Part shown: positions 10,748-60,388 of the stretch, one piece after another
Position numbering within the stretch: position 1 is the stretch's first letter
How the letters are laid out: each line of letters starts with the position of its first letter
IMG/VR virus record: IMGVR_UViG_3300044591_001745
Span: 1 to 64,000 of that record
Origin: a virus
Direction: 5' to 3' (one strand)
DNA: 64,000 nucleotides
Position numbers and translations under genes: made by a program
Notes under the pieces: model-generated
Seen by the model: only the letters and a program-made list of their open reading frames with translations
What the model was told of the DNA's origin: nothing
Databases searched by the model: none

Positions 10748-10770
10748 AAAAATCACATTATGTGAATATT
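10748..10770 (-). terminator. Weak terminator-like hairpin at the end of the RCC1/PT gene
   Basis: The minus-strand RNA reads TTCACATAATGTGATTTTT. A short stem (TCAC/GTGA) encloses the TAA stop codon of the upstream gene and is followed by five U. The stem is short and AT-rich, so this may only pause or attenuate transcription or protect a 3' end. Confidence 0.3.
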
Positions 10771-13700
10771 CTGTTTGGTACAATTAGTATATGATTAGCC
10801 AGATGTCCTATTCCTATATTATCTATTACACTAATATCATTACTTATATTGATAGATCCCCATGGTCCATTTGCACTAATTGGCATTTCAAAAGGAACAA
10901 TGGGTAGATTAATAACAGATGGTATATTACGAATAGAACTAGATAAAGCATCTCTATTGGTAATATTGCCAGTTTGACCAAGATTACTTTCACCCCAAGA
11001 ATACATTTTATTATCTGTTGACTTTATGGCAAATGATGTTATTCTGCCAGCATAAACTCGTTTCCAGTAATTACGACTATTATCATTATTGACGAAACCA
11101 AAGTCTACTTCATTAATGTCTATTTCGTTAGGATCGGCATCAACGGTTTTTGGAGAAGTATTAACTCTAGCCAATTGTCCGAAACTATTATCTCCCCAGG
11201 CCCATAGAGAGCCATAAGTTTCTATACTACTAAATTCTTTCTTGATGGCTAAATTATGATATGCCCCAGCTGCTATATCTAACCAAACGTCTGTTTCTAC
11301 AGATCTGTTCTGTATATCAGAATAGTTATCTTGTAATACATACATTTTTAATGGTAGTGGAGCATATGGAATAATAACGCTCGACCTATTAGGAAGATCT
11401 TTTTCTGCAATGCTTCCTACAGACGGATAGCTTTCTTGTACAACAACTGCTTTGTACAATAGGGTCGAACTTTCTCCTAATCCAAGTTGTTTAAAGTCAT
11501 TATCTCCCCAAACCCACATTTGACCCATCTCGTCTAAACCAAGAGTATGGAATCTGCCCAATGAAATTTTCTTCCATGCGAAACCTCTATTATAGCAATA
11601 CCCGCGACCAGGAGGAGGATTAACTAATCTCATTTTGGTAGTCAGACCAATTAAAACTGTTGGCTTATTATTAACTATCACAGGCTCTTTATTATTATTA
11701 ACCTTTTGAATGATACCTAATCCTAATTGTCCGTACTTGTTACTTCCGCATACAAAAAGTCTGCCATTAGTATCTAGAGCCATTGAATGAGATTCACCAC
11801 CATATACCCTACTAAACTGCTCATATTCATAATTATTATCATTAGTAGACCATTCTGTATCTAAGAATCTAATAATAGATACATATTTGATGCTATTTAT
11901 ATCAATAGAATTAATATTTTCATGATCTATACGCAACTTAGTAACGCCATTGCTTGGTATCCATTCAACATTTAATACCTTAACTTTGTGTAATAATGCT
12001 GGACTAGAATTTTCAGTATATGCATCAAGCATTACTTGATTTTTATTAGTATTAGTCAAAATAGAACTAATATCTCCATAGATTGTAATTACAGAAAATG
12101 CTGCTTTAGTTGGAGTTACAGTAGGAGTAGCGGTGCCGGTATTGGTCTGTGTTGGAGTAACAGAACGAGTAGGAGTAACGCTAACTGTAGTCGAAGGAGT
12201 AGGACTATTCGTAGGAGTTTGTGTACGAGTAGCCGTTACAGTTACGGTCGATGTTGGAGTAGCCGTTAATGTACGCGTTGGAGTAGGTGTAGCAGTTGGT
12301 GTTGGGGTTTGATTTGGAGAAGCTGATGGTGAAGCAGTTATACTCACTGTCGGTGTTGATGTGAGTGTTGTAGTTGATGTTTGTGTGGCCGTTAATGTTG
12401 TAGTTGTAGTCGGAGTCGCTGTTGGAGTAGTTGTTAAGGTTGTAGTTGTACTAGGAGTAAAACTAATAGTGGGGGTCGGAGTTGGAGTTGCTAAGAATAC
12501 ATCATTATTGTCTACACAATATCTATATTCCTTATATGCCTTGATCTTTTTAGGAGTTGGATTAGCTAATAAACCAGGGTCTGTGTCAATTTTGGTCTTT
12601 GAAACTACAGTAGCAACAACATCAAAATCAATTGGCTCATAATCTTCCCATTGTATTCTGATGGTAGTAGAATTAAAAGCAGTTAAAGAGGGAGCATTGA
12701 TCCATACTTTCGCAACACTTCTCTTATGAATATTTCCATCATAATAATCAATAAAAATTTCATCATTAACGGAGAATTCACTTCTAACGTCACCAGGAAC
12801 AATGATATCATATAGGTCCAAATCACTAGAAAAAGTACCAATGCTATAGATAGGACGCTCTAAGTAATGATTACCTAATTGTCCATCAGAGTTTCTACCC
12901 CATGTCCAAATGTCTCCGTTAGAATCAAGAGCTATACCGTGCATGGCTCCTAGACTAACCTGTTCGAATGTTACTCCGGCCACTCCGGAGACTCTAGTGA
13001 ACATAGACTTACTTTCAAAATTACCAATACCCAATTGTCCCCAGGCATTAACGCCTATGGCATGTAATGATCCGCTAGTATCAATAGCAACTGTAAAATT
13101 AGAACCAGCAGCTACGCTATCAAATTCAACAGTGTTATTGGTATTGTGATCTCTATAGTAAAGAATATTTTGATAATTGACTAATTTTTCATTAGTTTGT
13201 GCTGCAAGACGCGGTGGATCTAAAAATCTTTCATTCAATAAATGACTCATACCCAATTGACCATAAGAATTATCACCCCACACTAATGTATTAGATACTA
13301 ATGCTGTAGGAGTTGGGGTTACTGTAGGTGTTCTTGTTTGGGTTGGAGTAAGTGTAGCAGTTATGCTTGGTGTGGGCGTTACTGTTGAAGTTAGGCTCGG
13401 AGTTAATGTAACTGTAGATGTTGGGGTGGGAGTGCTAGTTTTGGTTGGAGTAACAGTAATAGTTGAAGTTTGTGTTGGAGTAGGAGTTTGCGTATTTGTA
13501 GCGGTTAATGTCAATGTACTAGTTGGGGTCCTAGTATTTGTTGGGGTTTGTGTTTGTGTGCTAGTTGGTGTTCTTGTAGGAGTACTAGAGTATGTTGGCG
13601 TAGTAGTAGGAGTGCGTGTAGGATTAGGTGTTCTAGTAGGAGTTTGTGTTGGAGTAGCACTTAATGTTTGCGTTGTAGTCTGAGTTAATGTTGGAGTCTG

Positions 13701-14213
13701 TGTCGGTGTTTGTGTGGCCGTTGGTGTTGGGGTTATCAAAACAGACTGGCTAATATATGAATATGGTTGTATATTATTAAAAGGATTAGTGTTATTGGTT
13801 TGTCCCATAACCCAATAAGAACTAGGAGCATAGTTGCTATCTAATTGAGGGAGATAACCAAAAGTAATAGTGGCTCTATAGCCCAAGCCGGTAATATTGG
13901 GATTATTTGTGCCATTATTATTTGTAGTTAAATAAGCTACAACTCTATTATTGGCATCCAGCATGACTAGTTCTAATTCAGCATAAATAAGTTGACTATT
14001 AGCTGGAGTAGTATTAATAGCTAGTGAAATAATATTTTCATATGAATAAGTATAATTGTCATGAGTATCTGTAACGGTACCAACTAATGCGGTGCCCAAT
14101 GACTGAGAAGCAGTTGTTCCAGTATCTGGATTCCTAAGAGTAAATTTTCCACTTACTCTGTAAATCTGTAATGGATATTGAATTAATTCATTGTAATTTG
14201 TTGCTATTCTCAT
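10758..14213 (-). CDS. RCC1 beta-propeller protein with two Pro/Thr mucin-like linkers
   Basis: This 1151-residue protein has an N-terminal beta domain (1-160), a Pro/Thr/Gln/Arg linker (about 161-306), three RCC1-type blades (about 308-460), a spacer, a second Pro/Thr linker (about 574-703) and four more blades (about 794-1095). Seven blade signatures are visible, for example [28 protein letters not shown] and [14 protein letters not shown], which is the number needed to close an RCC1 propeller. The second linker is inserted inside the propeller. RCC1 repeats are binding scaffolds, so a receptor-binding or tail-decoration role is likely (inference). The start overlaps the upstream TAA (TAATG) with AAAGGA in front. 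The neighbouring upstream gene is a paralogue with the same fold. Confidence 0.9.
12105..12490. repeat. Pro/Thr-coding low-complexity tract (intra-propeller linker)
   Basis: About 130 codons of Thr-Pro, Thr-Ala and Thr-Ser units appear on the plus strand as degenerate ggagtagg/gttggagt repeats. The tract lies between the third and fourth RCC1 blades of the protein at 10758-14213. Units vary in codon use, so it is an old, diverged repeat rather than a fresh expansion. Confidence 0.9.
13295..13735. repeat. Pro/Thr-coding low-complexity tract (N-terminal linker)
   Basis: About 145 codons of TPT-type repeats with interspersed Gln, Arg, Asn and Val connect the N-terminal domain of the RCC1 protein to its propeller. 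The composition resembles an extended mucin-like stalk and offers many potential O-glycosylation positions. Confidence 0.9.
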
Positions 14214-17200
14214 TATTCATCCTTTAAAACTATAAAATACCCAGCTGTTATATCTGGTACAACAGCTTTGAAACGCGACCTTACGGCACTGTTAGGAGTG
14301 GTTCCTGTTCCCCAACCTGTACTGGTGCTAGTATACAATGCTGCTATTGTCGATCCATATTCATAATACGAGATATTTGTTGAATTTAATGTTGTTGCTA
14401 TAGCAACATTAGTCGGCACACTGCTTGGGACAGTACCTATTATAACGGGGCCATTTCCAGCATTGCCTGATCCTCCAGTACCTAATAGTATGTCCTCTAC
14501 GCCAGTCCAATTGGTTGGTAGATTTTGAGCTGTGTCTATAAAAGGATTCATGTGTAATTTATTATTAACATCATAAGCTATAAGCACACTACTACTTGCT
14601 GATAGCTTAGAATATGCCGTACTATTATCAATTAGTACAGGAGCAACAGATGATCCGCTTAGAGTCAATGTGCCCGTATTTACTTTGATGGTACCTCCAA
14701 CCCAAACATTGCCTCCTCCCCAATAGCCAGATAAACGATATAATCCTCCGTCGCTCTTTATTCCATAGAAACCTCCAGCATTACCGGCAACTGATTGCCA
14801 AGAGTCGGTACTAACTCTAACAGGAGCAGTAGAGAAAGTAAAAGTACCGGCCGATCCAGCACCGGTTACTAATCTATTGTCTCCCCAAGCCCATAACGTA
14901 TTATCTGATGCTGAAATCATATACAGAGTAGAAGTATATAATGTATTAGAATCGTATCCCCATCCTGCTACTGATGTAGCCTGAAGATTAACAGACGTGC
15001 CTATTCTGTTCCATGTCGTAGTTGATCCCAAAATAGAACTAGATGATATACCATATATTTTACCAGATTGAGATATGGCAAATAAATATCTTATTGCACC
15101 GGCAGATGTTTGTGGCGATCCAGGATTACCTATTAATTTTACAATGGTTTCACCAGCAGGATTGTTAATTATAGACGATCCTCCAAAAGTATTTGCTGAT
15201 GAACATACTACTACGCCATTGGATAATAAAAATGCAGTATAGAAACGATCAACATAGACAGCCTGAGTAACTTTTGTATTTTGATTACCCGATCCTGTTT
15301 TAAGTGTCCCGACTGAGCCATAATTAAACTCATTCCATTGAGTCCAAATAGCTCCTGGCGTGGTTGGTATAGTTGATGAAACACTACTACGAGTACCTCT
15401 ATAAAAGACTGCTGCTGATTTATCTATTAATGTAGCAGCTGCGGTGACTATGGGGTAGGCGTTATACGATCCAGAGACTATGCAACGATATCTATAACTA
15501 TCAAAAGTAGTATTTAAGTTTGATAAATATAAAATATTATTTGTAGATCCATTGATATTGGACCAATTTATGCCACTGTCGGTTGAGACTTGCCATTGAT
15601 AAGTTATTTGAGCATAGTTCGTGGCAGAAGCCGAAACGCTGAACGAAGCTGCTCCGGCTAAAGATTCAACGCTTTGGGGATTTGCAGAAATTGTTAGAAT
15701 AGCACCACTCCTAATTGCAGCAGAACTATTGCCTCCAGCATATACAGACTCCCAATACGTGTCTCCATTTGCACTAATTTGAACAGGACTTGAGCTGTTA
15801 ATATTTGTTCCATTTCCTAGCTGTCCTTGTAAGTTATTCCCCCATGCCCATAATGAACCATCAATTTTAATGCCTATTACGTGCGTGTTACCAGCACTAA
15901 TGTCTAACCATGTTCCTGATAGTTGATATGGACTATTACGAGAAGTTGTTGTAGAATCTCCTAATTGACCAACGGCATTATTTCCCCAAACCCATAGTGA
16001 TCCATTGGTTTTTAAAGCGGCAGTAAAACCTGCTCCGCAGACAACTTTTGACCAATCGCTACCAGCTACAGCAGTTGGAGCCGATGTATTTGTGTTGTTT
16101 CCTAAGCCCAGTTGCCCATCAGTATTTTGTCCCCATGTATATAATGTTCCACTATTATCAATGGCGGCCGAATGATTCTGCCCACATGCTACACTAACAA
16201 TGTTTGTGGTTATCGTAACAAAAGTATTTTGAGAAGTATTATTGCCTGTACCTAATTGACCATTAGAGTTTAATCCGCAAGCAACCAAGGTTCCATCTGT
16301 TCTAACTGCTAAACTGTGATTTTCTCCAACAGCTATATCTTTGTAATCATTAGTATCCGATATTGCAGTCAATGAGGAAATGACTGTTGACGATGTTCCG
16401 AGTCCACACTGTCCATTAGTATTGTTACCACACGCATATAAGCTATTGCCATTACTATCAGATATAATAAACAAATTATGATTATATTTAGTTACTGCTT
16501 TTACTGCATTTAAAATATTGTTAGCAGAAGCTTGACCCTGGGTATTAATGCCAAAAGAATTAAGTATGCCACTAGCATTAATTAATATCGTATGGTTTTG
16601 TCCTAATGAAGCACTTCTGTAAATATTTGATGGATTGTTTCCGAATCTAGGAAGATTTGAAGAGCCAGTATAGCTTAATTGATCGTTATTATTAGAACCC
16701 CATAACAATAAACCACCAAAAGTATCGGCCACATTTAGTGTGGCGGCGTTACTCGTTACAGGATTTGCTGCTGTATTGGACGAAACAACTACTCTATATT
16801 GATCATTATCAGATGATCTGGTCAAATTAGTAATAGTTAATGTGGTAGAGCTACCAACTCCGGGAATATTAGTGAAAGTAGCTCCGCCATCAGAACTTCT
16901 TTGCCATGTATATGTTAAATTATATAGAGTGGAACCAAGAGAAGGTATGGATGCTAATGTATAAAAAGTTGCACTAGCATTGAATGATGTGACGTTCTGT
17001 GGTTGCAAGGAAATAACAATTTGTGGAGCCGTGACAATGAGTGTTCCAGCGGTAGTGGTTTGGCTAGTAGCTCCGCCATTTCCAGAGACTATTACACGAT
17101 ACATACTACCACTATCTGCTACTGTTAAATTACTCAAGTTTAGCGTACTACTATTAGCTCCGGATATATTGCTATAAGTTGTTCCGCTATTAGTACTTTT

Positions 17201-18547
17201 CTGCCATTGATAAGATAACGTGCAATAATCTGGAGATACATTTGCTTCTACACTAAATGCTCCTGATGTTCCTGATGTAGTCAAATTTTCCGGATCGCTA
17301 GTGATTGTTATCTGGGCTGTTGTAACAGACAATACAGAATTACTACTGTTAACCGGGGTCGGAGTTGATCCTCCACCAGAGGCTACTCCACTAATACGAA
17401 CTCTATAAAAAGCTCCGTTATCAGATAGCTGGGGGTTTGTAATGGTATAAGATGAGGTTACAGCACCAGAGATATCGTTCCAATTACTACCACTATCGGT
17501 GCTTTTTTGCCATTGATACAATAAAGTTATAGATGATGGTACTGCTACGGCGGTAACACTGATTGTTCGATTAATACCTATAGCAGTGAAGATGTCTGAT
17601 ACTGGTTGACTTGTAATATTAATACCAGCTGGTAGCGGAGGTCCGCTGTTTGATGGAGTCTGAGTGTTGGTGGGCGTTACGGTCGGAGTGGCGGGAATAC
17701 CGGCATCGAACCAGAAGCGAGCATTAGGATAATGATCTATACCGGGAGCCGGATAATTGTTACCAAATAATGGATATGAACCATCTTCTGTTGTGGATGG
17801 CCCTTGACGTCCTTTTGGCTTTCCATTGGCAATCCAATTTACATAGCGAGCTATATCACTCCAGCTTACATAGCTGATGGTTCTACTAAGATGTTCTGGT
17901 TGATTAGGAAAACAAGAAGTAGCACCAACAACACATCCATCTACGCTATATACATAAAAGAAACCGTCGTAATCTTTATTAATTCCACAAGCTTTATCTT
18001 TTTCCATTTGTGGTTTCCACAACATATGTGGATCATCGTATTGTGCTACGCTATTTAAAAATTCTACCCAGTCAGCAACAGTAATAGTTGTCCTATATGT
18101 ACCGAATGTTTCTTCGTCCCTAGAAACTATAGTATAGTTGACTATATTACGATGTCTATCAATATTACGAGGAGTAGGAGTAACTGTTGGAGTTGGAGTA
18201 GCAGTACACTGTAAACTAGAACATGATGTATTTTTAACGCAAATAATTTGTCTTCTTAACTTAGTAGTTGTCAATTCGCTATATGGACCGTCAGAAGATA
18301 TTCCATAAAATTCTAAGTTAATAAGATAATGGTTATTTGGATTGTCCCTTAAATGTACAATTATATTGAGCGTTTCAGAAGTGCCGTCGGCTTTAAATTC
18401 TCCTTGAGATGGATGGAATATGGCCTTCCCAGCATTCATTAGGCTGAGTTTATATTTGTAGGTTGTGCCAGGAACAAGATCAACCAAATCTATTATGGCT
18501 GAAACTTCAAATGGACACTCGCATTTGTTTACAGTAATTTCTTGCAT
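14213..18547 (-). CDS. Multi-domain adhesin-like protein: FGE-like domain, Ig-like repeats, RCC1 propeller
   Basis: The 1444-residue protein starts at 18547 (AGGA ten bases upstream). Domains in order: a Cys-containing N-terminal beta domain (1-115); a short PT spacer; a segment resembling the formylglycine-generating-enzyme/sulfatase-modifying fold (about 137-287, with [11 protein letters not shown] and [14 protein letters not shown]); three Ig-like repeats with YQWQKS- or YTWQRS-type strands (about 303-602); seven RCC1 blades (about 609-942, for example [16 protein letters not shown]); a fourth Ig-like repeat (944-1046); and a degenerate second propeller-like region to the end. The FGE-like segment stops after ARFWF, short of a full domain, and no catalytic Cys pair is evident, so it is more likely a lectin-like binding fold than an enzyme. 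Host binding or fibre decoration is inferred. Confidence 0.88.
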
Positions 18548-21293: not shown

Positions 21294-22463
21294 TTACTCC
21301 ACCGATCTAACTATAGGTTGTGATAGCCTAAATGTAGGGGACTGAGGAGGCGAGTCACAATCAACATATATGCTTAAAATATCTTTATCAATATTTGTAG
21401 CACCAATATTTAATGAAGATACTATTGTAAAAATATTATTATTTGTATTATTAACAAATTTTACCTTAGCATAAATTGAACGATTAGGCAGTTGATTTTT
21501 ATTTAAATAGAAGTCTTGATTTACAAATATAACATTTGTATCTTCAGAATCTAAATGAACGTGGTAGTCTGTATTTTTTTTAAGATTTGTGAGGTTTATA
21601 ACCACGGAAACTATAGCTGTATAGTCTTCTTTGCATGTGCCGGGTTTTTGATCTAGTCTTATGGCCTTAACATTATTGTCTATAAAATTTACTTCCTGCT
21701 TGTTGATATTAAAACATTGTTCAATATCAAATGCTATTCTTTCGAATTTAGTTGATGTAGGAGTGCTTCCTGTAGAATACCATACAAAAGGAAGGGTTTG
21801 GTCTTGTCTGGGAATAACAATATATCCCTCTTCTCTTTTCAAATAAGAAATTTGATTCAGAACATCGTTTATGCGAACGTGTCTATTAGAGATGTATGCG
21901 CCATTACTAGTTGTTGTATAAATTTTATCTATTTTAGTAAATAGGTTGGTTAGGTCTTCTAAAAATATCCATTCATCATTTTGAGTAATATAGGCTCCTT
22001 TACCATCAATCCATACATAGACATTATTAGGCAATACCGATATAGGCTCAACAAATATATTTGGTTTAGGAAATACTACTTCTATTTTAGTTTCTGTACC
22101 TTCTTTGGAAACTTTACCTCCGGATAAAGTTATTACTGGTGCCGAAGTATATCCAGCGCCCTCGTTGGTTATTTTAATAGATTGAATAGTTTTAGGATCG
22201 CTATTTAAAGTTACAGTTGCTGTGGCTCCTTTGCCGCCCCCTCCAGTTATAGTTACTGAAGGGGCTTCGCTATACTCTACTGTTCCTAATGTAATTTTTA
22301 GATTATTATCAGATAAAGGAACTCCAACATCTTTTATGACAAAATCAGTTAGGCCACGAGGAGTAGACGAAGCATCAAGAATATAGGAAAATTTTAATGG
22401 CCTATCTTCACCAGTATATTCAACAATTTGTATGCTTTTTGATATGATTTCTTCGGTTAGCAT
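21294..22463 (-). CDS. Tail fibre/structural protein with Gly-rich beta repeats
   Basis: I take the ATG at 22463 as the start (389 residues). An upstream TTG at 22496 would add 11 residues but lacks a ribosome binding site, whereas ATAGG lies before the ATG. Residues about 45-120 hold two copies of a strand-turn motif, 'SEAPSVTITGGGGKGATATV' and 'TSAPVITLSGG', characteristic of tail-associated proteins of T4-like cyanophages. The middle contains a 'YVWIDGKGAYITQNDEWIF' stretch. The C-terminal third is beta-rich, with 'FVNQDFYLNKNQLP'. It is adjacent to and probably works with the next gene upstream, which has a similar C-terminal strand pattern. A tail fibre or its attachment protein is inferred. 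Confidence 0.8.
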   Translation of the reverse strand: MLTEEIISKSIQIVEYTGEDRPLKFSYILDASSTPRGLTDFVIKDVGVPLSDNNLKITLGTVEYSEAPSVTITGGGGKGATATVTLNSDPKTIQSIKITNEGAGYTSAPVITLSGGKVSKEGTETKIEVVFPKPNIFVEPISVLPNNVYVWIDGKGAYITQNDEWIFLEDLTNLFTKIDKIYTTTSNGAYISNRHVRINDVLNQISYLKREEGYIVIPRQDQTLPFVWYSTGSTPTSTKFERIAFDIEQCFNINKQEVNFIDNNVKAIRLDQKPGTCKEDYTAIVSVVINLTNLKKNTDYHVHLDSEDTNVIFVNQDFYLNKNQLPNRSIYAKVKFVNNTNNNIFTIVSSLNIGATNIDKDILSIYVDCDSPPQSPTFRLSQPIVRSVE

Positions 22464-22515
22464 TATAATATGGCCTATATTAAAAAATTTGTGCAACTAC
22501 AATTAGTATACCCCA

Positions 22516-32221: not shown

Positions 32222-35200
32222 TCATTTTGGTTTAAAGTTGAAACTACCTTCTGACTGCTTATTCATATTCTCAAAGGCTCTATCTACTTCACCTCTAACA
32301 AGCTCCTTAACTTTTTCTTCCATATTATTGAAAGTAGCGGTTCCATTAATATTCACGTTTACCTCATGTTTTCCTGTAATGTTAATAATTGGTGGAACAT
32401 TAAGCTTGGATAAAGTTTCCGCAAATTGAGTGAACTTGGTGGTAAAATCTCCTAAAGCTGTTAAGGCGGTTTCATCCAGTGTAATATTGCCAATATTTAA
32501 TCCACCTAGAGCTTCTCCAAAAGCAGTAACGCTAGTTTCAAACTGTTTAATAGCGGTCAATGTAGCGCTATCAAAGCCCATACTATATGAACTAGATACA
32601 CCGCCAGAGGATCCACCACCTTTATTTTCTCCACCACCACTAAAATACTTGGGATTAATTACTCCTCCGCGACTAGCATAACTAACAATCTGACCAGTGG
32701 TATTATTTCCATTATTAATGGCTTCTAAAATTGGCAAGTATCTTTGAGTGGAGTCTCTATTGATAACAAATTCGCCGGGGGTTAACATGGCTGGAACAGT
32801 ATCTGTTCCTTTAGGAGACCAATTTACAGGAGCAGCGCCTCCATCAGCACGATAAATAAGCCCTCCCTTGGCTTTATTGACTGCATTTCTTGTTTCTTCT
32901 TCTGTGCGTGGAGCTTCTGATGGAGGTACCTCAGCTTGATTAGGAGCATTTTTTGCTGCCTGATTAGCTACGTCTTCTGCGGTTTGCGGTTTAGGCTGAG
33001 ACGCAGCCTGAGCTTCTTTTTCTTGAACAGCCTTTTCTCTCAATAATGCCTCAACAGTATTTGTAGTGCCAGCTTTTCTATTCTTATTATAATAAAATCC
33101 ATACAAAGTGGGTTGTGCATATGGCATAAGATTTTCATCGTATATTTCCTGTAATCCAACCATTCCTGGACCACCTTCGCCATCGACAGTTAGGCCAGAG
33201 AAATTAGTAAATGCTTTATTAGCTGGCTCATAATTCATCTTCATTTTATTCCATAATTCATTACCTTTCTCAGTAAATACTCTTGGTAATGCATCAGGAG
33301 ATAAATTATTATCGTAAAAATCTAAAACTTGTTGTGCGGTAGCTTTCATCTGATCGCGTTTTTCAAAATCTTCTGGTGCTGTCGGAGATACGCTACCAAC
33401 AAATTGATTAACAAGGCCAACGAAAGCATTTTTATCTTTTAATGCCCCTATAAATGTTTCAGCATTAACGTCTGTCGGTGGAGTGATTTTTGCTTGGGTA
33501 GCCATAGCCGTTAAGGAAGAGATCAAACCATTCACTGATGGAACTACAGCAGGTTCAAATAGCTGCTCTCCTTCGCCAGCAACTGGACGCATCAAAAGAT
33601 CATCTCTATCCGTTAAGAAATCTCTTAGTGATATTAATTGTGGAGAATATTCTTCCCACAAACCAGCCCACCCAGCTGTTCCCGGATCTTTACTTTGTGT
33701 CCACTTTCTTGCATAAGTATCTGCATTTTTCCATAAAATATTTCCCAAAGTTTCTCTATATTTAGGTTCATAAACTTTACTGTCGTCTAAAAATTGAGTT
33801 AATATATCGTCTATTGTTTCTGGAATCTGTATGTCTTCTGTTCCTGTTGCTGTAGCAACCTTCATCATCATCATGTCAGGATCTGCTGTTTTTCCAGCCA
33901 TAAACTCTGAAGCTTTTTTCTCTGATCCAAAAGCAGCGAAGTTAGATTGTAATAATGCCATTTGTTCAGAGCTTATTTTGGCTAAATTATTGCCTGTCAC
34001 TAATTGTTTAAAGCGTTGTGCTGTGCGTACTTGATTAGCAAATCCTAAGATATAATCAACAAATTTTGGATCCCTAACAACTTCTGGAACATTCCAAAAC
34101 TTTTTAACTAGCTCTTTGCCTGATCTTTGATCTGTTTCTTTTTCTTTGAGTAGATATTTTTCTAGATTACCAGATTTAGAAAATAACGTATAAAGTCTCG
34201 TGCTTGCTTGTCCAATAGATGTTCCTTCTGATATTGGTCGTTCAGCATCAGATGCTAGTTGACTAAAAAATCTGCCAGCGCTCATATATTGACCAAGCGC
34301 TCCTTCAGAAGCTAAAGTCTCAACTTTTTCTCCTTGATTTTTATCGTAAGCTTCCTGTTCCAATTGCAAAGCTTTTCCTTTAACCCATGAGATATAATCA
34401 ACGGCTGCCATTAGATCGTCTTGAGTGCTGATACTTCCCGGAGGAGCTACTCCATCATTAGAAGCAGCCTTAGCCCAATCGGCAGCACTAGATAATGAGC
34501 CCATAGGAATATTAATATTTTTAATCTTGCTCCAAACAGGAGCAGCTAGCATAGGAATTTGTTCAGACTTAAAGTGAATTAAACTGGCTTCTTTTTCCAT
34601 CTGGGCCTGTCTAGTCTTTCTGTCTGTCAAAGCTTTCCTAGCTACAATTCCTTGAACTAGTTCAATAATATTAGGAATTTTAGCTAAAATAGGATTCTTG
34701 GCATCTTCATAAACCGGATTAAGACCCGACAGGAAACTATCGGTATAGAACAAAGCATTTTGTCTTAATAAATATGCAGCAGCACTATCCTCAGCATCTG
34801 ACCCTTGAGCTTGATCTTGTCCAGGCTTGGCTTTTCTGCTGGTTCTAGCACCTCTGACATATTCAGCTGACTGCATAGCAGCCTCTGCCATAATAGGCTG
34901 ATATCCACCAGCTAAAGTCATGCCAAGAATACCCCAATCTGGAATATTAAAATTAGCCAAGGCCCATTCATTGACGGCAGCTTCCATTGCTGCTTCACTG
35001 CTATAATATGGCAATAATTTTTCTGCTCCTGGTCCCATAGATTGAAAAGGATTAATTCCTCCTTCTGCTTTATTGCGACCAATAATGTGGACACCTTTCA
35101 TTGGAGTGTCGGATGGCTCAAAAGGAGGTCCGGGTAAAAATTTAGTTTTGGTTTGACCATCTATATCTACCGTGGCAGGATCTAATAGAGGAATTTGTTC

Positions 35201-38200
35201 GAATGGTCTATATGAAAATTGAACTGGTACAGGAAATTTTGAATTAGGTAAATCTATAAGTTTATCAAATGTTGCCGCTGTCTTGACTTTTAATCCTATT
35301 TGAGAGGCCATTGCAGCTTCTTGTTGTGCTTGAACAGATTTTAGCATATCGTCTGGAACTATATCTATCGTACTCCAAGGAAGCGGATCATATTGATTAG
35401 AAGGTTTGCCTTCTTGATATATCTTAAATCCATTCTCTGCTGTATAGTCCCACATTTTCTTTTGCTCAATAGCATTTTTAATGGCTTCGTTCGTATCTTT
35501 TGCTGCTACAAGACTCTTCCACGATGGCCTCATTGCAGTACCATAAACTGTCAAATTACCTGAACTTTTACCAGTAGCTCCTTCTCCTGGCTTATCTGAT
35601 GATCCAGCAGACGAACTCCAACCAAATGAAGAACGAACACTATCTTTAATTTCTGATTGCTTAAAGTCGTACTTTAGTCTTGTTCCAGATTGTAAGGCTC
35701 CAAGAATCTTAGAATATCTGCCTTCTTTGGCTTTTGACGGGGTTTCTCTTGTCCAATGAGCAGAATTAAAATTATCTGGGGTCGTAGTTTCGGCCTTTAC
35801 TTCCTTAAGACTGTCGTAATAACTTTGCAAAGCATCTTTAACAACGGAAAAATCTTGAACATTAGTGTTTGCAGCAGAGTTATCAATTTTTACTGCTTCA
35901 GCTAAATATTGTTCTGTAATTGCGCTTTTCTTTGGATCATTTTCATCCAGAGTAGGATAGCCATCAGTTCTAAACTGTAATAAACCTCCTGCTGAATTTC
36001 TTTTTGGAAAAGCATCCTTAGGAACTTCTTTTCCTTGACTTAAATAAGCATACATATATTCTTTATCTTTAGACATTGCAGTTGGCCCAAAAGAATAAGT
36101 AGTGTATGCTCCGCTACCTGATGTAGATACTTGGGCTTCTGGTGGGTCGGTTCTTAGCTTCCATTCATCAGCCTTAATAAAAGAATCAACCCATTGTTTT
36201 AGTGCTTTTTCTTGAGCTTTGGCTTCTGTTAAAGATATATGATCTACACTACCTTCTCCATCAATCAATCTTAAGGCAGTATCCTTATCCCTAAACTGCA
36301 TAGGATAAGAAATCCCACTATCTACTGCTAGCTCTTGTAATTTTTGACCTATGCCTTTAACTTCTACGGGAGTAGCTCCATCGTATATAGCCTTGCCGGC
36401 TCCTACTACAGCGCCAGTTGCAGCTAGTCCCGGAACAGCATTTCTTGCTGCCGTCCTAACTCCTTGTTCTAAGGTCTCTCCTCCCATTCTAATCGCTGCT
36501 TTTTCGGATACTCTGGCAGTCATGCCTGTAGCAGCTGATGTTGCTTCAGCAGCAGCTTTAGCAGAAGACATTCCTAGTTTTTTCTTTATGGAGTTGGGAA
36601 TAAATCTCATAAGAACATCTACAGTGTTCCCGTTCAAGAATCCTGCCATCTTATCATATAGACCTGGGGCAAATTTTTGGAAAATACCAGGAATTAATTT
36701 ACCGCCAGCGGATGCTAATCTTTTAAAGCCAGGTACCCATTTTAATGCCCAGCCAAGAGCCTTTGTAACACCCTTTCCTACTACTCCAGCGCCAGGAATA
36801 GGAACTAAATTAAATACAGCGCTCAATCCTTCTAGGGCTGCTCCCAAAATATTTCCTTTAAATAGTTCTCTTACGGCGTCTATTCCGGATACAACAGCAC
36901 CCAAACCAGGAACAAATTTCATAGCCTCCCATATCCATCCTCCAACATTGCCTCCAATTCCCATAGGAGCACCATCAACTTCACCACTATTATTCGCTGC
37001 TGTTGTGGCAACAACCTGTCCTAACCTTCCTGCTGCTGCATTTTTTGCGGCAATACCGGCGGCGGCCCCGAGACCAGCCCCCTCTAATGTTTTATTTACT
37101 ATTTGCCTAGATAGATAAAAATCTGGCAATATTCCCATTTCTGCCTGATTACCCTTCATAGACCCTGTTCCTATAGTTCCAGCACCAAGAGCATTGGCTA
37201 CATCAGCAGAAGAACCATTAAAAGTAGGATATGAATAAGGCTTATAGAATTGCAAGCTACCTTTATCTGCATCTAGCCCAGCAATATTTTTGATAACATC
37301 ATTTCCAGAACCAAATTTAGAAAAATCATTCCATGTTGTATATAGCTCTCCTGGTTTACTATCTGTAAATCTATCTTTTTCTGGTTGAAGCATATCGCTC
37401 ACCCAACCACCCTCTGCTAAATATTTTACGGGTCCTCCTTTTGCGTATCCATTATTAATAGCTGTTAACAATGACTTATTCGACGATGCGGCTTCTTTGT
37501 TTACAACAAATTCTCCTGGCGTTAACATTGCCGGAACTGTGTCTGTTCCTTTTGGTTTGAATATAGATCCGCCAACAGCTTTATATGTAACTGTTCCTCC
37601 TCTAGCGAAAGGCATGGCTTCCCCGCCTCCTGCTGCGACATTAGTTACTTTGGTAACTCCATTTTGTAAATGGGTGTTGAGAGTGTTAATTCCCTGGCTG
37701 ATATCTTTTAGATTAGCATTTGCAGATGCTTGTTGTACGCCATTAAGCGCATTCTGGAAAGCTTGCTGAGAATTAGCTCCTATTTGTTGAGCAAGATTGC
37801 CATCCAACATAGCTAAATGCTCATTAGCTTTAGCTTGTAGTTCTGTTGCTTGTTTGTATTGATTGATGGCTTCTGCCATCTGGGGGTCGCCTTCTGGATT
37901 TCTTAATCCTTCTAATACCTTATTGAACATGGGACTCATTTCTGTCCCTGATTCTCTCATCATAGACTCTAGCATATTGGCTTTCAACTGATTTTGATTT
38001 TCTCCCAACATAGGAGCCAACATCTTAAATGCTTCTAATGTATCGCTTCTGTCTTGTGCAGCAGCAGAATCAGCGGCTTCCTGTGCTTCTTTCATACTGG
38101 CACCGCTTTGTAAAGCCTCGTTATAGGCTTCTTGCACTCTTACGGACTCCCACATATTATTGGTTTGGCCGTTCATGTTGCGTTCTAAACGATCAAAAGC

Positions 38201-41200
38201 ACCGCTTAACTTGGCTTGGTCCTTGGGAGATGAGGACACATATCTTTCTAGTATATTTAGTCCTGCTTCATTCTTAGCTCTTAGTTCTCCAATTTTATTT
38301 AGAGCTGCTTGAGCTACTTCTGTGCTTTCTGATAGTCCTTTAAGAGCAGCATAATTTTCCCTTAAAGACATAGTTGTAGATGCTAACTCTCTGTTAAATG
38401 CTACTATATCCTTTTGATTTCTTGGTCCTCCTTGGGACGCATTGTTCATTGACGCTTGTTGTCCTTGTCTTAATTGTTCTAATCGTCCTATATTATTAAA
38501 TATCGCTTCTGGGTCTGTTGTTCCAGCCTGACTCATAACTCCAGCCCTAGCGTCTCTCTTACTAGCGGTAAAAGATATAGTTTTTCCTAGAGCTTTTGCT
38601 AGATCTGTTTCTCCACGAGCGCGAATATCAGAAGCTCTTCTGAATTTCTCGTTAGAAGAAATCTGAGTATTCACCATTTCATTTGTGGCTTGAGCATAAC
38701 TATTAAGCGACTCTTGGTAAAATTCTAATGCTTTGACTGCTGTTTCTTGTGCTCTCTTAGTGGCTTGAATAGTCTTGCCAAGAGCCGATGACTCATTAAA
38801 CAGCTGCCTAAAGTCTTTTTTATCATCACTGCTGGTTCTTGACGAAGTGACGTCCGCTGCTACTTGACGAGATAAAGTTTGTTTTAGCGCAGCATCAATA
38901 TTTAATTTTCCAAGTTCATCTTCTATATTTTTACCTATACGAGCTTCTATTTTCCCGCTACTAGCTTTTGGATCTTGTTCTATTGTGCTATTAATTGTTG
39001 ATAGTATTGTTTCTTCCAATTTTGGACCAAATTCTAATAAGCCCTTCATATTAGCGGCTTGACCACCAAAAAATTGTGAACCTACATTTGCAGCAGCAGA
39101 TCTATCTGTTTGACTAGAGACATTCGGATTTTGCAGAATATTGAGTGCGTCTATCCTAGCTGCCCCTACCTTAGCATCTCCAGTCATAGATGCTTGCATC
39201 AAATCTGTAGCATCGGCTAATTTGTTTAAAGAATGTGTTACAGAATTAATGCTCTGCTCCATATTACTGAGCATTCTTTCCAAGCCATATAATAAACTAC
39301 TACTTTGTCTGTCTGCCTGTTCACTATTTCGTTGTCTAATAGCTTGAACTTCTTGTTGTCTAACAGCATTAGATGCTGTAAATTGTATTAGTTCTTGTTT
39401 ACGCGCTTCTCTGACTTGTCTAGATACACTCAAATCTGCATCTATCAACCTTAAGCTTTCTTCTACTTTAGCATTAGATCTAGCCAGTACTTCTGCTTGT
39501 TGAGCCCAGCCCGGATCCTTCATTATGTCTGAGGATGTTTCTCCAGCCTTAAATCTAGCGGAGTTTTGCTGTTCTATCATAGAGGCTACTTTTGCAAATT
39601 GCTCCGATGATTTAGCTGCATTTTGTGGTGCTAGTTCTCTGGTATATTGCTCTTGTGTGCGGCCCGTTACATCTAAAAGAGACCCAAAATAAGCCATACT
39701 GCCTTTTTGACTTAATATATCTGCTCTCTGAGATCGTCCTTCTTGGGAACCTCCACCAAGAGCTAGTGTTTCTCCAATTACATTAGATGTACTCCATTGA
39801 GGATTAGTTTTGCTAATATCTGCTAATGTCTTTGCAGCAGATGCGGCTCTACTTATTTCCATTCCAGCCGATTTTAACTGATTGGCATTCTCTACGGTAT
39901 TTTGATTATAAGAAGCCAATGCTTCTGATGCATTCTTCAAACTATTTTCTAGAATCTGTGTAGCTCTTTCTAATTTATTCCTACGCAAAGTATCTGTAAT
40001 TGCTATAAAAGCAGATGCTGCTGCGTTAAATGCTCCGACGACCAAAGCAGCAGGACCGGCCAAAGCAGATAGTGAACCAGTAATGCCACTTATCACTTTA
40101 GGTAGATTGCCCGCTAACTTACCTACCATGCCTCCTCCAGTATCAAGTCCGCCACCTATACGGCCAACAATGTTCTTTAAAAATCCAGGACTCATTCCGT
40201 CTGCAAAAGTAGATACTCTTCTACTGGCATCGATTAATGTTGAGGAGAAATTTGATAATGTTTTGGATGCGTCTTCAGAAGTACCTGCCTTTGCTATGAA
40301 TTCTAATCCTTTATTAAATCCATAGAATAATGCCTGAGTATTTCCTATGCTTGTAGACAATGATGATAGTGTACTACCAACTAAAGTAGTAGAGCCGACA
40401 AATTGACCCAAAGCACTAGTAGCAACAGCAGCCGCGCCACTATACAACAAAGACTGTTTTGTCATATTCTGTATAGCTACTACATTATCTTGTATAGATT
40501 TAGCATAATCAGTATTATCTGGAACAGTGGTCGATCCTCTTGCTGTAGACTGAGCTGCTGTTCTCATTTCTCCAGAGGATAGTACTGCCCCTCCTCTAAC
40601 AGAAGCCATGCGACTCCTAGCCTCATTAATTGCATCAGCCTGATCGGCAGTTGCTGATGTTAGTCTATTCTGAGCAGCAGCTTGCACAGCAGCAAATGCA
40701 GCGGCGTCTGCTCTTGCTTTTGCTTCGCTTGCTGTAGCTCCTGCTAATCTTTGTTCCTGATATGTTTGTAGTTTCGTTGCTTTGGCTGCTTCTTCTAGCT
40801 CCATCATATATCTTTGTATCGCTGCTTCTGCATCTCCAGCAGGAGGACTGCCCGGTGGACCTCCACCAGCAGGAGGACTAGGAGGTGATGGTGGAGAAGT
40901 TGGTGGTCCGCTAGGAGCAGGAGTTGGTGCGGTAGAGGTAGCTGCCGAGCCGATGATATCATCTTTTGTTATACCGCTGGTAATTGCTAAAAATGCATCT
41001 AGAGCAGCTTTATTTTTACCAAGACTTTCTGCCATTGCTTTGGCACCGATATCTACAAGCTCAAATGATGGAATATTGTTTGCCTTGCCTCCTCTTTGAC
41101 CTCCTCCAGTTACCTCATATCCAACCATTCTTTGAACCATTTGCAATACCAATTTAGGATCTTGCATAGGATTACCCAAACGATATTTATCAGAACTCTT

Positions 41201-44200
41201 ATCTGGATTTTCGTTCATATGCAACTGTTTGCCAATATCCCACGTTGCCCAACTTTCGCTTTGACCAGCGATACTAGGAGCTTGTCCAATTCCTGACATA
41301 GCAGTAGAGAACATATCTCTCATTTGAGAAACTAAGGCATCGACTTTGGTATTGTCTTGTTTTGTTAACTCTTCTGCATATTTTTGACCGGAAGGGCTGA
41401 TTGCGGTATCTGTTTGTCCGCTAACATCGCTATAATTCATGCGTTTGCGATAATATTCAGTATCTCTTACTGGTAAAGGCGGCAATGGAGGTGGAGTGAT
41501 AGTAGGAGGAGATACTGATATTGGCTGTGGAGAAGTACCAACAGCAGCTTTCATAGCGTCTGATGCTGATACTGGATTTCCTGCATTTCTGTTGGCTAGT
41601 CTTGCCTGTCTAGCAGTTAATGTGTCCTCTTGCATTCTTTGGAGATCTTGTGAAGAATATCCTTCTGATTTAGCTATAGATTGTTCTTGAGTAGCTACTC
41701 TGGATCTATTAATTTTATCTAATTCTACCACTACTCCTGTAGACATCTGTCTAAAAGCTTCTACTATATCTGGACCCAAAGAATCAGTTTGTTTTCTAAT
41801 GCTTGACATAGACCTTTTGACAGTGCTCATAGCGGCATTCCATGATGATGTGTCTAATAGGACACTAGCATCAGATAATGAACCGATAGTAACACCAAAA
41901 GCATCTTTTAATTCTTGCGGAAATGACGATATGATACTGTCTATTCTATTTTGTATTTGTGCTAATTCTTTAGCATTAATTGCAACAGTTTCTACTCTTT
42001 GTAATTCTCCACCATCAGCAAACTTTTGTATTCCTATAGCCCCGCCCTTATTGAAGCCCAATGCTTCAGTGGCTTTTTTCCTAATAACAAAACTTCCTAC
42101 TGGCAATCCTACTGGACCAAAAGAATCAGTATTTCCACTACCAGGAACTATACCAACGTCTCCACCACCAGCATATCTACCCATGCCATTTTTATCGGCA
42201 TGATTCATACGACGCAACCTACCGTATCCTATTTTCTTAGCTAGTTTTGGACCAATTACAGCTTCTCCGGGAGTCAACAAAGCTGGAACACTACCTCCTT
42301 CGGCAAATCCTCCGGTTTGTAGTCCTTGAGCTTGACGTTGAAAGAATTGCATGGCCATTGTTCTAGAGTCTTGTTTCTGGTTTGCTCTAGTAACAGATTT
42401 GGGATCATTAATTAAAGAGGGACTCTTAGTATATCCGCTTTGTAGTACCCATGCTAAGTCTGTTGGGGGTGGCCAAGTTTCTCTTCTACCATAAAGTTTA
42501 GGATCTATAAGCGCGTTATTTTTTGTCCAATCTTCAGGTTCTAATGGGACTTTTTTAACGTCTGATCTATTTTTGAAATAATATTCCCATACTTTTTTTG
42601 CATCTCCACTAACCATAGCCCTATCTGATGTAAGCATAGCTCCTTGTTCTGTTGCTGCTTCCATAACAGCATCATATAATTTAGGACCACCGCCTCCAGT
42701 AGCTTTAGACAATCCAACAGTATACAGATTGTTTTTGGCTTTTTTAGCCATAACAAATCCCGACACTGTATCATTTTTAACATATCCAGCATTTATTGTA
42801 GATCCATCAGATGTTAGAGATATGCGTGGATATTGTTTTTCTTCTTTACGAGCTGGCTGCTGATTATTTCCATCTCCTAATATTTCTATATTAGATGGCT
42901 TTAATGGTGATTGTCCAACATACTTTAAAACTAAACCGTATGGTTTTTGGAATAGTTTACTCTCGAATTCATTAACTAATGCAGGGTCTCCGGCTGTTAA
43001 TCTCTGCATTAATTTGCCAATAAGTTCGCCCTCTCTAACATTCCCGTCGGTACCACTATAAAGCGTTCTTCTCGCACCGCCTTGAACTGTATATTGTTGC
43101 CCGTCATCTCCGGTAAGCGTTTGTGATCCTTCTTGTACTCTTATGCCAGATGACATAATTCCTTTTTCTAGGTTCTTATCAACTTTACCCAATAGGCTAA
43201 TCGGAGCATCATCTTTCATGGATAGCGTTGGCTGTATTTTATCAAAATTTTCAGTCATCCATTTAATGATTAAAGACTTTTGCAATTCATAGTCTAGATC
43301 ATAATTTTCTGGTGTAAGAGCTTCATTGAATGTTAACACCATCGGTTTCCCTGTTGTGTCCCCAGAAACAACGGTTCCAAAACCGCCGCCAGCAACTCTC
43401 ATTTTGGCTTGAGTAACTGCCCTGTCTTTTTCTGTGTAAACATAAAATCCTGCTCCTTGCCCATAGCCAGTAGCAATATTGCTTAATGCTCCTTTTTCTT
43501 TGAAGCTATTAAGGACACTATCATTAGTTCCGGTATTACTACCATGAAATAAACTAACTATTCCACCACCGGCAAATCTGGCGATATTTGGATTTTCTAA
43601 AAAATATCTTGCAAACTCATTACGTGCTCTTTCAAAAGCACTGCCATCTAATGTTCTCTTTATTTCTGTAGGCAGATCGGGATCTAACCCGAAAAATTGT
43701 GCAGCGCGTCCAAGCCCATTTGGGAAGTCGATAGCTCTATTCGATTCAAGTTGATCGATGGGTGGAAGATTAGCTCCTAAAAGTGCCAGGGCTTTTTCTA
43801 TAACTGCGCCTTCTATATTGCCCTGACCCATTAATTCATCTAATTCTGGTTTGGCTTTCGGCTCAGTATATAAGAATCCTTTCTTTCCACTCTTAGATAC
43901 GGCATTTAAATTATCTAGACTATCATCTATTAATTTTTCTGTTTGCGCTAAATTGGCTGCCTTCGCTGCTGCTATATTGGTAGATGCTCCTGAGCTTACT
44001 CCTGTAATATCTGATTCTTTGTATGGTAGTCCAAAAGTTTGCAAAGTTTTTGCGAGTAAATCGGCAGTTGCTTGTGGTCTTGCGGTCAATATACGAGTTT
44101 GTCTAATAAAATTAGGATCTTCATCTATAAGTGTTTTAAGTTTTGCTCCTAATCTAGTTAATTTAGCTTTTTTAAGAGCTTCTGCTACAGCATCCCTATT

Positions 44201-47200
44201 AGAGTATTGGGGAATATTTGGTTTACCATTAGCATCTAAAATGTCCCCACCAGAAACCAAAGTCTCATCGAAATCAAAAACAAGAGAACCACCATCAAAA
44301 ATATCTGCATATTGCACATTCTCCGCTAATCTTATAGAAGATTCAGAAGTTTCTTGTTGCATTTGACGAACAGCATTAAGGTATTTACCTTTGAATCCCC
44401 TAACATATGCATAAATATTTTTTGGATCTTTATCTGTACCGATATTCCACTCAAAATTTTTATTGTAATCTAAAGCATTATTAGAATCAACTAGTCCTGC
44501 TACAGCAACTTTCGGCAGTCTAGATATTCTTTCTACTTCGGCAGCACTTTCAATATTCCCAGCAGATAGTGCCCTATCGATTACTTTTGCCGCTTCTTCT
44601 ATTCTCCTGCCCTGTTTGAGATTACTAACTCTTAGCAAGCTATCTAATTCTCTGTCTCCACCGCCTACTCCTAGTATTTTTTTAACTCCAGCTATTTTAC
44701 CAAGAGCTTCTAATTCTTGAATTATAGTATCTTGCAAGCTTTGACCTCTTTGTTGCGCTAGTTCTGCAACTCCTCCTATAGAAAATTTTTGTATTAGTCC
44801 TCCTAGATTAAATCCTGGAATACCGGCCGCTCTTTGTTTTTCTATCCATTGATAAAATTGTTTCTTTTGATCTTCTGCCCAAAAATAATCTAAGGTTCCT
44901 AACATTGCTTCATCTATAGAAGATCCAGAAGACTGTTCTTTAAAATAGGAACCAATAGATTTTTTATCTATTCTGTATCTTAATAATTTGCTAACTAAAT
45001 CCATATCATCTGTTGGTATAGATCTAAATTTAGCTTCTCCAATAGCGTCTATAGAATTATCTTTAAGTTTTCTAACAAGATCTATAGGATAGTCAGATTG
45101 GTTGCTGGCACTTTCCCATTTGCCAGATAATTTGGCTGCCAATACTTCTTCATATGCTTTACCCCATCGGCCTTCAGCGCTCATTAGTTTGCCAACAGAA
45201 GATTCCCCTGTAGCTGGAGGAGCCTTCCTTCTTCGATCTGATTGTCTAATTTGTCTTAATCTATCTCTATTTTCTGGACTAACATCAACGCCTTCATAGC
45301 TTTTATACTTACCACCACCCATTGAAGCCGAGGCGTTTGCTGTGTCCCATATTTTTTGAAAATCTTCTTTTTCTGTTAATTTTACCGTTCTTCTATTAAT
45401 TCTAATAGCAGCTTTGTCTGCTAATCTATCATTCGCTGATTTTTCTATATTGGATGCTGGGAACAATACTGAATTAATTGTATTAGATCCGGAGCGACCC
45501 AGTAATTCATCTATTGTAAAATATTCCGTTAGTCCACCGGCAGCAAATTTTTTAGCTTGTCCTTTATTTATTGCAACAAGATTACCCTTACCATAAGCCT
45601 GTACTGCTTTGCGATTAACAACAAATTCTCCGGGTTCAAGCATGGACGGAACTCTATCTCCTCTGCCAGACCCAGGAACACTACCGCCCTTAGCAAACTT
45701 TAATATACGACCACCACTGTTAGCGGTAACAGTTCCTCCACCGCCTCCGAAATCTGTACTAGCAATAGTATTATTCAGAGCAACAACCTCATTGGTCAGC
45801 TGAGCAATTGCGCTATTTCCTAAATTATCTATGGATGCTTGTAGTGGAGTTATAGCCCCTGCTAATGCACCCATAGTTGAGCCCAAATTATTTAGCGCTG
45901 TAGTATTAGCGTCTAAATACCTAGAATTGTCTGTAACGTCCGCCGCTGCCCTATTATTTCTAGCAGATGATGCCGCTCCTCCTCCTTGGTCTCCTGGTTT
46001 AACTTTTTGCAGACCACCGACGAATCCTCCAACAAAACTTGTTAAAGCCTTAGCTCCTTTAATAGCTCCGATAGTAGCAAGAATAGGGAGTAGTGGTCTA
46101 GCAACATCAGCAACTTTGATAAAAGTGTTTGCTAATGTTAGTCCTAAGCTTACTAAGGTCTGAAAACTATCGCTTTTGCCAATTTCTCTGATAAGGGCTA
46201 CAAATGACTCTCTGGTTTTACTAAATTGTACTGCTAACGATGCTTGTGCTTTTATGGCATCAGCGGCTAATGAATTTTGTCCTCTTTGAGCAACGGTCAA
46301 GGCTTGTTGGGCTGTGCCGAACTCCTGAATTAACGGCAGCACCTTGCCAATCTGTCTAAATCCACCAAGTTCTTCTACTATTCTGGAAAAGCTAACATCT
46401 CTAGGATCAAGCTTGCCTAGACCTTCACTTAATAATTGTACAGCCTTATACGCCCCTACGAATTTACCTTGAACATCTAATAAATTAACTCCATACTCTT
46501 TAAGAGCTTCGATAGTATCTTCTCTTTGAATACGAGTAAAAATTGTTCTTAAACCGGTAGCGATAGTTTCCGCACTTTCACGAGTTGTAGCACGAACGCT
46601 TGTGAATACCGCGATGAATTCATTTAATGCGTCTGTACCTTCGCTTACTCCTTTACTGGCAGCAGCAAACACACCACCGGTACGTTGAATAGCAGTAATA
46701 ATATCACTAGCTTCGACAGCAAATCCAGCAGCAACAGCATTTATAGAACCTAGGGCATTATCCAAGTCTTCTGTACTAATTTTAAACTGTCTCATCAAAG
46801 CAATACTTCCTTCGACAGTATTATTCAGATCATCGAACGATGGAGCTAGAGCTGTCAATGCTAATGCTCTCAACGCTTGGTCTGTTTCTCTTGCGCTCAA
46901 ACCAGCCTGAGCCAATGTGTCTGATATGCGAATTAAATCACTGGATGCAACTCCAAGCCCTGTTGATAATCCGGTTATGGTATCTGTAATTCTATTTAAT
47001 TCATTATATGATTCGCCTGTAATTTGAGTTAATCTGACTAATTGTCTATCAAACTCTATAAATTCGGATGTAGCCTTGCTTACAGCATTATAAAGTCCAT
47101 AAATTACTGATGTAGCAGCATTAAACGCAGCAAATCTACGAACAGCCAGAGCAGATTGGCGACCAAACTCTTCCATTTCGTCTTTGGCTTCTACAGTATT

Positions 47201-60100: not shown

Positions 60101-60387
60101 ATTTTAGTTGCTAATATATTAGTGAATGCTCCACTTGCACCTATTGTCAGAGTTTTAGATGGCAGTGCCCTAATTTCGCCATTTTGTTCGAATACTATAT
60201 CTACTTCGCTGACACCATTGCCGATATATACATCTCTGCTAGCATCTCCTATAATTAGATTGCCACTTGTTGTGGATAGTGCTAGATCATTAGTGTTAGT
60301 AAGCTCTATCTTTGCTAATGATGAAGCTCCAAGATCTTGATAAAAATCTATCTTGCCGCTTCCTGGAGTTATAATAATATCGCTCAT
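57181..60387 (-). CDS. Tail or head fibre with repeated 'IGIGT..P...LHV.G' units
   Basis: I choose the ATG at 60387 (1068 residues). A GTG nine bases earlier is part of the AGGTGG ribosome binding site. The body contains five units of the form LGIGT-x-x-P-x-x-x-LHV-x-G (near residues 185, 260, 395, 475 and 645), typical of trimeric phage fibres. A YadA-like block (IIGGQSNTI, IVSGSYGVAAG, NVSGNNSFIAGG) lies at about 895-950. The final 96 residues are a tip domain shared with the collagen-like fibre at 54591. No S74 autocleavage chaperone is present. It follows the beta-helix protein with adjacent stop and start. Host or surface binding is inferred. Confidence 0.88.
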   Translation of the reverse strand: MSDIIITPGSGKIDFYQDLGASSLAKIELTNTNDLALSTTSGNLIIGDASRDVYIGNGVSEVDIVFEQNGEIRALPSKTLTIGASGAFTNILATKIGINQNSLSNIPLDIYNSVSGSTLINVVGTNGNLFSVTDNLSGSLMSVNNNAGLPVFEVFSDDRIVAGRFNQNDFIMTSGGNIGIGTGVPSVKLHVVGNSVFNGDISATGSFVAGSGTASLPSFEFVGDSDTGLFSPSANTVCVSTNGAERLRLDSIGNLGIGTTAPQQLVHISGNIPSTGNILRIQNGHPGQRTFVDFRIGSTGNYEDHFFIRRNGTDVFGIDTTNRGVFLENFSLFATKQFNSYNNLNAFIELQQAASPATSANMRIGYISEANLIFLASYTERMRLTGAGNLGIGTASPSTRLEVAATGTVSCDIAHFSNSNSVEKAKFSLDSGGNGTFSLIDGSNNTDIFLTSDINSASYINAGNLGVGISTPTSRLHVIGSGIFSSGIMVGDSSTNGIVIGPSGNTFIQFNTSTTNRIDIGSNTYTNSNTYLGTQFVWLNGQSTYVNGTLTFPKSATATSTATQSNTNSIIMFNGLWTGSAEVSVGNAITSTASTTTNLSSRFAFLMHNGDGTNNRTERLSILNNGNIGIGTTAPDQLLHVVGDINVSNNFGFRVNNTATSGQYLRGNGTRFVSSTIQSSDIPESLSLSNISITGLSNTSSFNNTGSLHFNNPNSNFLSFNASGVGAPTLNFGGRSDGVKIILRPSTSTFSGDYAFGIETNAVWQTVPGSSQSFKWYAGATNIATLSGDGAFTVFGGSSSRINVDNLRLDGNSLSSTNSNGPVIIQPSNYGAVQRTEDGDPRGQYSIDWQAIRSTGTQVAAGNYGSIIGGQSNTITSTHSSILGGFKNIVSGSYGVAAGEENNVSGNNSFIAGGKQAKTDKHGEFAHAAGYFATAGDAQHSVLVARMQTSNATATILTLDGAAAGSSNRITIPAKTTWTFDIKLSAYNDTGNLGMGWNIRGAIRRNGANGTALLGSTTTSWTDGGVMNGLVATVTADDTNEALQINVTGLASTNIRWIAVIDYSQVSY

Positions 60388-60388
60388 A

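Follow-up and report, generated by a model that had tools for sequence, protein, structure and literature searches.

Two adjacent RCC1-repeat proteins in the tail region of an uncultured phage, one of them with threonine arrays and an interrupted propeller

Results

The window analyzed here is a 64-kb stretch of an 85.2-kb uncultured virus record. Virtually all of its long ORFs lie on the minus strand and form one late array, and a terminase gene is found to the right of the window. Within this array ORF2 (14213..18547, minus strand) encodes a tail-region protein of 1444 aa that carries an RCC1 propeller, and ORF1 (10758..14213, minus strand) one of 1151 aa in which the RCC1 propeller is interrupted. 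ORF2 is transcribed first, and base 14213 is common to its stop codon and the start codon of ORF1. The blade signature [WCFI]G.[NS]..[GKD]Q occurs exactly seven times per protein, at residues 616, 665, 706, 757, 805, 854 and 902 of ORF2 and at residues 312, 386, 438, 822, 902, 1006 and 1073 of ORF1, in agreement with the initial annotation, which had recognized seven RCC1 blades in both. The RCC1-like domain PF25390 matches ORF2 with an E-value of 1.4e-97 and ORF1 with 4.3e-62; the corresponding values are 8e-51 and 6e-37 for PF00415, and 8e-43 and 5e-40 for PF13540. All three families score above their curated cut-offs in both ORFs, which places the proteins in the RCC1 repeat superfamily, and judged by these profile matches their RCC1 similarity is far beyond chance. 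A search of NCBIfam gave no matches.

The pair lies downstream, in the same late array, of a gene for a 5109-aa tape measure protein (32222..47551, minus strand; PF10145 1e-22, phrog_4211 9e-24), and a 400-aa tail/baseplate-type neighbor (21294..22496, minus strand) matches PHROGs 460, 708, 438 and 32294, which cover head closure and baseplate wedge. The placement in a tail module that was first proposed for the two genes is thus upheld by an upstream tape measure, a baseplate-wedge-like neighbor and a common strand, that is, by position. The 682-, 1425- and 1084-aa proteins encoded downstream have no detectable family, and so the tail-tip identity of the region is likewise proposed from position. 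The late region also encodes a 256-aa LamG-like protein and other fiber-like proteins, and large proteins at 57181-60396 and 24737-32203 match the LbR_Ice_bind beta-roll family PF21300 with E-values of 7.5e-8 (above cut-off) and 2.4e-5 (below), respectively. Phage P23-45, whose tail is extremely long, has a tape measure of 5002 aa (PMC10770324), shorter than the one at 32222-47551, and the uncultured phage may have one of the longest tails known. The DxDxD polymerase motif, as in P23-45, was not found in the 5109-aa protein.

ORF2 reads as a chain of domains, all on the minus strand. The N-terminal domain (aa 1-115; 18203..18547), with 72 and 64% identity to two orthologues, is the best-conserved part of the protein and is a possible attachment domain. 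It is followed by a second conserved domain, unassigned to any family (aa 126-283; 17699..18172; 65-66% identity to orthologues), for which a by-eye likeness to FGE/C-type-lectin domains was rejected, as Pfam gave no match and the PDB no significant one. About three Ig-like domains occupy aa 308-606 (16730..17626), where Pfam PF13927 Ig_3 matches at 9e-7, just below its cut-off, and the phage Ig-like head/decoration PHROGs 613, 25852 and 4069 match as well. The seven-bladed RCC1 propeller spans aa 607-950 (15698..16729), and sequence pattern and position point by eye to a further Ig-like domain at aa 951-1043 (15419..15697; 52 and 47% identity to orthologues). The C-terminal part (aa 1044-1444; 14216..15418; 45-47% identity) can be divided by eye into about seven units and may be a second propeller: PF13540 matches it with an E-value of 0.026, below cut-off, a profile-profile comparison gives 6e-4 over about two blades with a probability of just 29%, and AlphaFold confidence is low. 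A further, degenerate RCC1 set at the C-terminus of ORF2 is plausible on these sequence matches.

The fold of the ORF2 propeller was modeled with AlphaFold from three orthologues. Its blades have pLDDT values mostly of 75-93, weaker at the domain start and in the first blade, and the model superposes on complete RCC1 propellers over about 370 aligned columns for the HERC2 RLD and RPGR and about 324 for UVR8. TM scores normalized by target length are about 0.7-0.8 against solved RCC1 domains, with matches to complete propellers at 0.79-0.80. Motifs and model together predict that ORF2 forms a closed ring of seven blades. The corresponding ORF1 model, also from three orthologues, has a mean pLDDT of 29 and is uninformative, and so ring closure in ORF1 is predicted from its seven motifs. 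The closed propellers initially assigned to both proteins are therefore borne out by superposition for ORF2, and for ORF1 are what the motif count would imply.

ORF1 (all features again on the minus strand) begins with an N-terminal domain (aa 1-156; 13746..14213) that is 58-60% identical to its orthologues. Next comes a stalk-like alternating-threonine array (array 1, aa 161-309; 13287..13733), gap-free in the orthologues; over its 149 residues, 91% of the positions in phase are threonine and 3% of those out of phase. Blades 1 to the first part of 3 (aa 309-455; 12849..13289) carry the WG motifs at aa 312, 386 and 438, and blade 3 is then interrupted by an insert of about 340 residues (aa 456-796; 11826..12848), in which two small domains, weakly alike (E 0.003), flank a second alternating-threonine array (array 2, aa 576-703; 12105-12488). 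The remainder of blade 3 and blades 4 to 7 (aa 797-1151; 10761..11825; WG motifs at aa 822, 902, 1006 and 1073) are 79% identical to the orthologues. The length of both threonine arrays is unchanged across the three orthologues. Expansion of a DNA tandem repeat was considered as their source and rejected, since Tandem Repeats Finder gives one weak array and all four threonine codons are used. PHROG 15511, of unknown function, matches the alternating-threonine type, and the ORF at 18586-21288 has a further array with threonine at every second residue, at about aa 778-844.

Viral contig searches with the single ORF1 or ORF2 sequences returned a near-identical record only, and an alignment query added the 150-kb record L016. 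The ORF2-ORF1 pair is kept in order and size in L016 and in the 81.9-kb record L010. Against L010, ORF2 identity falls from the N- to the C-terminus through 72, 65, 54, 56, 52 and 45%, a pattern of conserved N-terminal anchor and variable C-terminal tip across three orthologues, with aa 1044-1444 the least conserved part. This pattern is absent from ORF1, where the C-terminal propeller reaches 79% versus 58-60% for the N-terminus. Identity of the ORF1 propeller among orthologues is 71-79%, and that of the neighboring 682-, 1425- and 1084-aa proteins 68-81% (81% for the 682-aa and 77% for the 1084-aa protein); the ORF1 propeller is as conserved as the proteins around it. Further RCC1-bearing ORFs of about 820-850 aa occur in three records of the phage group, and the 150-kb record has a 1733-aa RCC1-bearing ORF upstream of the pair, so two RCC1 proteins per phage is probably an under-count. 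RCC1-bearing ORFs of relatives measure 823 aa in L148, 816 aa in L150 and 1733 aa in L149; one such ORF adjoins a gene that by eye is DNA polymerase III alpha-like, and the propeller sequences of ORF1 and ORF2 in that record are identical to those of the window.

Paired RCC1 proteins in a phage tail module had been considered unusual, a view that comparison with other phages does not support. PHROGs has at least three RCC1 families of phages, 7220, 16766 and 4219 ('regulator of chromosome condensation'), with significant matches over the propellers of both ORFs, and tblastn with the propeller found 111 phage records at E-values up to 1. The blade pattern matched at least 120 stretches of IMG/VR viral contigs. 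Among the loci listed, which include viruses of eukaryotes, 64 (with the window as one of them) contain an ORF of at least three motifs, 11 of these have at least two such ORFs, and several stretches hold two to four RCC1 ORFs. Three RCC1 genes of the cultured Synechococcus phage S-SRM01 adjoin those for a baseplate wedge and a distal tail fiber; RCC1 genes of this phage lie among metabolic and glycosyltransferase genes as well. In PollyC and SeaP3 a T7-type tail-fiber N-terminus (Phage_T7_tail 7e-5, slightly below cut-off) is followed by RCC1 repeats, and in LIS04 and LIBA6276 RCC1 repeats are found in the baseplate/fiber region. RCC1 proteins have been detected by mass spectrometry in virions of W70 (PMC11370258) and GAP32 (PMC5259590), and the structural proteome of phAPEC6, also determined by mass spectrometry, lists several 'DNA condensation proteins' (PMC7247149). 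Large RCC1-bearing tail-region proteins, also in tandem, are already present in many phages.

Discussion

The adjacency of ORF2 and ORF1 had suggested that one arose from the other, and it is natural to ask whether a single ancestral propeller gene gave rise to both by tandem duplication. Apart from adjacency, this explanation draws on a profile alignment that places three blades in register at an offset of one (E 5e-19), and on the best cyclic offset, also one, whose score exceeds that of permuted blades by about 2 s.d. when the seven offsets are not corrected for; these matches are compatible with common descent and with general family similarity equally. Recent copies should be each other's closest relatives, and among 55 RCC1 proteins ordered by mean blade score, ORF2 comes 46th for ORF1 and ORF1 51st for ORF2, so the two do not behave as products of a recent duplication. 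For six blades drawn at random among 345 the expected rank is about 49; the ranks of the best partner blades average about 45 for ORF1 queries and about 128 for ORF2 queries. Mean blade scores and the tree were used for this comparison in place of raw phmmer totals, which favor many-blade proteins and were dropped. The free tree of 41 propellers keeps ORF1 and ORF2 apart while joining tandem RCC1 copies of other phages (L117 at 100, L043 at 97 and a pair in L018 at 92), and outside the propeller the architectures of the two proteins are unrelated. A common ORF1-ORF2 clade is nevertheless not rejected (p-AU 0.92), and the tree constrained to contain it is better than the free tree by 20 log units, so the tree is undecided between shared and separate origin; ORF1 sits in it on a long branch and has an odd composition. 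Since the pair is common to three diverged phages, any duplication would be older than their split. In sum, the sequences give no sign that ORF1 and ORF2 are recent copies, and tandem duplication appears an improbable origin for the pair.

We favor, with a probability of roughly 0.55, the reading that ORF2 and ORF1 are tail-tip structural proteins, with ORF2 an exposed adhesin and ORF1 its more constant structural partner. The seven-bladed RCC1 propeller of each protein would serve as a rigid binding head held out on long linkers, made of Ig-like domains in ORF2 and of alternating-threonine stalks in ORF1. ORF2 would bind a host surface molecule, and ORF1 would be a constant component of the tail tip or baseplate that carries such adhesins. 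We infer that both proteins are in the virion, that they bind a ligand and that they divide the labor in this way; the fall of ORF2 identity from N- to C-terminus and the steadiness of ORF1 suggest that the former is the changing, exposed adhesin and the latter the constant component. By analogy, the ORF2 gradient resembles that of receptor-binding proteins, and the PollyC/SeaP3 fibers, the genes of S-SRM01, LIS04 and LIBA6276 and the virion RCC1 proteins of W70, GAP32 and phAPEC6 would be supporting precedents. The reading is also favored by the place of the genes downstream of the tape measure and near the baseplate-wedge-like protein, by the conservation of the pair and its order in L010 and L016, and by the accompanying Ig-like domains. 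Four observations weigh on the other side: the conservation of ORF1 is higher than a typical receptor-binding protein would show; the faster change of ORF2 could come from relaxed constraint instead; RCC1 genes of S-SRM01 lie among metabolic and glycosyltransferase genes too; and the downstream proteins match no family, which leaves the tail-tip assignment to position.

The equal conservation of the ORF1 propeller (71-79%) and its neighbors (68-81%) would also fit propellers that are purely architectural, serving the tail tip or whiskers as rigid spacers or as platforms for docking, while host recognition falls to different proteins of the array, such as the LamG-like one or that of 2488 aa; the 256-aa LamG-like protein and the other fiber-like proteins of the late region are consistent with this. 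We regard such a role as unlikely, though deserving of serious attention, because ORF2 divergence rises toward the C-terminus and the RCC1 repeats of PollyC are fused to a tail fiber.

Phage RCC1 proteins are widely annotated with 'chromosome' or 'DNA condensation' because of the eukaryotic name, and condensation or organization of DNA inside the capsid has been proposed for phAPEC6 (PMC7247149). Beyond that proposal, which rests on eukaryotic RCC1 only, this role draws on name-based annotation in PHROGs and jumbo phages, and for ORF1 and ORF2 the 'chromosome condensation' label taken from eukaryotic RCC1 has no support. Both are large, multi-domain proteins with Ig-like domains and threonine stalks and a tail-region location, and RCC1-like propellers bind very different partners, as the structural neighbors UVR8, HERC2 and BLIP-II illustrate; a function in DNA condensation is accordingly very unlikely. 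The position of the genes here, RCC1 genes in the tail regions of other phages and the T7-type fiber speak for an adhesive or structural role in the tail, a proposal open to testing in S-SRM01, PollyC or other cultured phages. Least probable of all is that the two are non-virion proteins, secreted or displayed for host manipulation as BLIP-II-like enzyme inhibitors or superinfection exclusion factors, for although BLIP-II (3qhy, 3qi0) is among the structural matches with a TM of about 0.8, the genes are embedded between tail genes in a late structural array and encode a very large, stalked architecture.

What is unusual in detail is the split blade and the threonine arrays, and these deserve attention ahead of the pairing itself. 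Speculatively, and at rather long odds, the arrays may be rigid rods of measured length, possibly sugar-coated by enzymes of the phage, and the split blade may carry a rod that bears further domains; if true, this would be a previously undescribed way of mounting several binding heads on one tail protein. The sugar-related genes of the phage (window 53650-54594; L012:14333-15325; L013:1773-3536) include an RgpF-like gene (PF05045) and a nucleotide-sugar epimerase (phrog_540), and an ORF that by eye is glucosamine-fructose-6-phosphate aminotransferase-like is also among them. Possibly these genes serve virion glycosylation.

Comparison with known RCC1 systems places ORF2 within the seven-bladed fold of the eukaryotic RCC1/RLD proteins RCC1, HERC2, RPGR and UVR8 (TM about 0.7-0.8) at low identity (16-29%), and the likeness seen is one of fold, with no sign of Ran exchange, binding of chromatin or photoreception; Ran is not encountered by a bacterial phage. 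BLIP-II, a bacterial beta-lactamase inhibitor and extracellular protein binder, is likewise an RCC1-like propeller and a structural match to ORF2, but is a single small domain and not part of a virion. Relative to the phage families PHROG 7220, 16766 and 4219, ORF1 and ORF2 add Ig-like domains, threonine stalks and, in ORF1, the large insert in blade 3. The closest propeller matches in cultured phages, at 36-38% identity, are gp335, gp337 and gp344 of S-SRM01 and a 'BNR repeat domain protein' of BUCT-ZZ01; the S-SRM01 RCC1 proteins have about 350-400 aa, compared with 1151 and 1444 aa here, and the BUCT-ZZ01 protein has 700 aa and 13 RCC1 matches. The tail fibers of PollyC and SeaP3 belong to short-tailed phages and use a different anchor domain, unlike the long-tailed phage described here, and what they share with its proteins is a propeller in the distal part of a tail protein.
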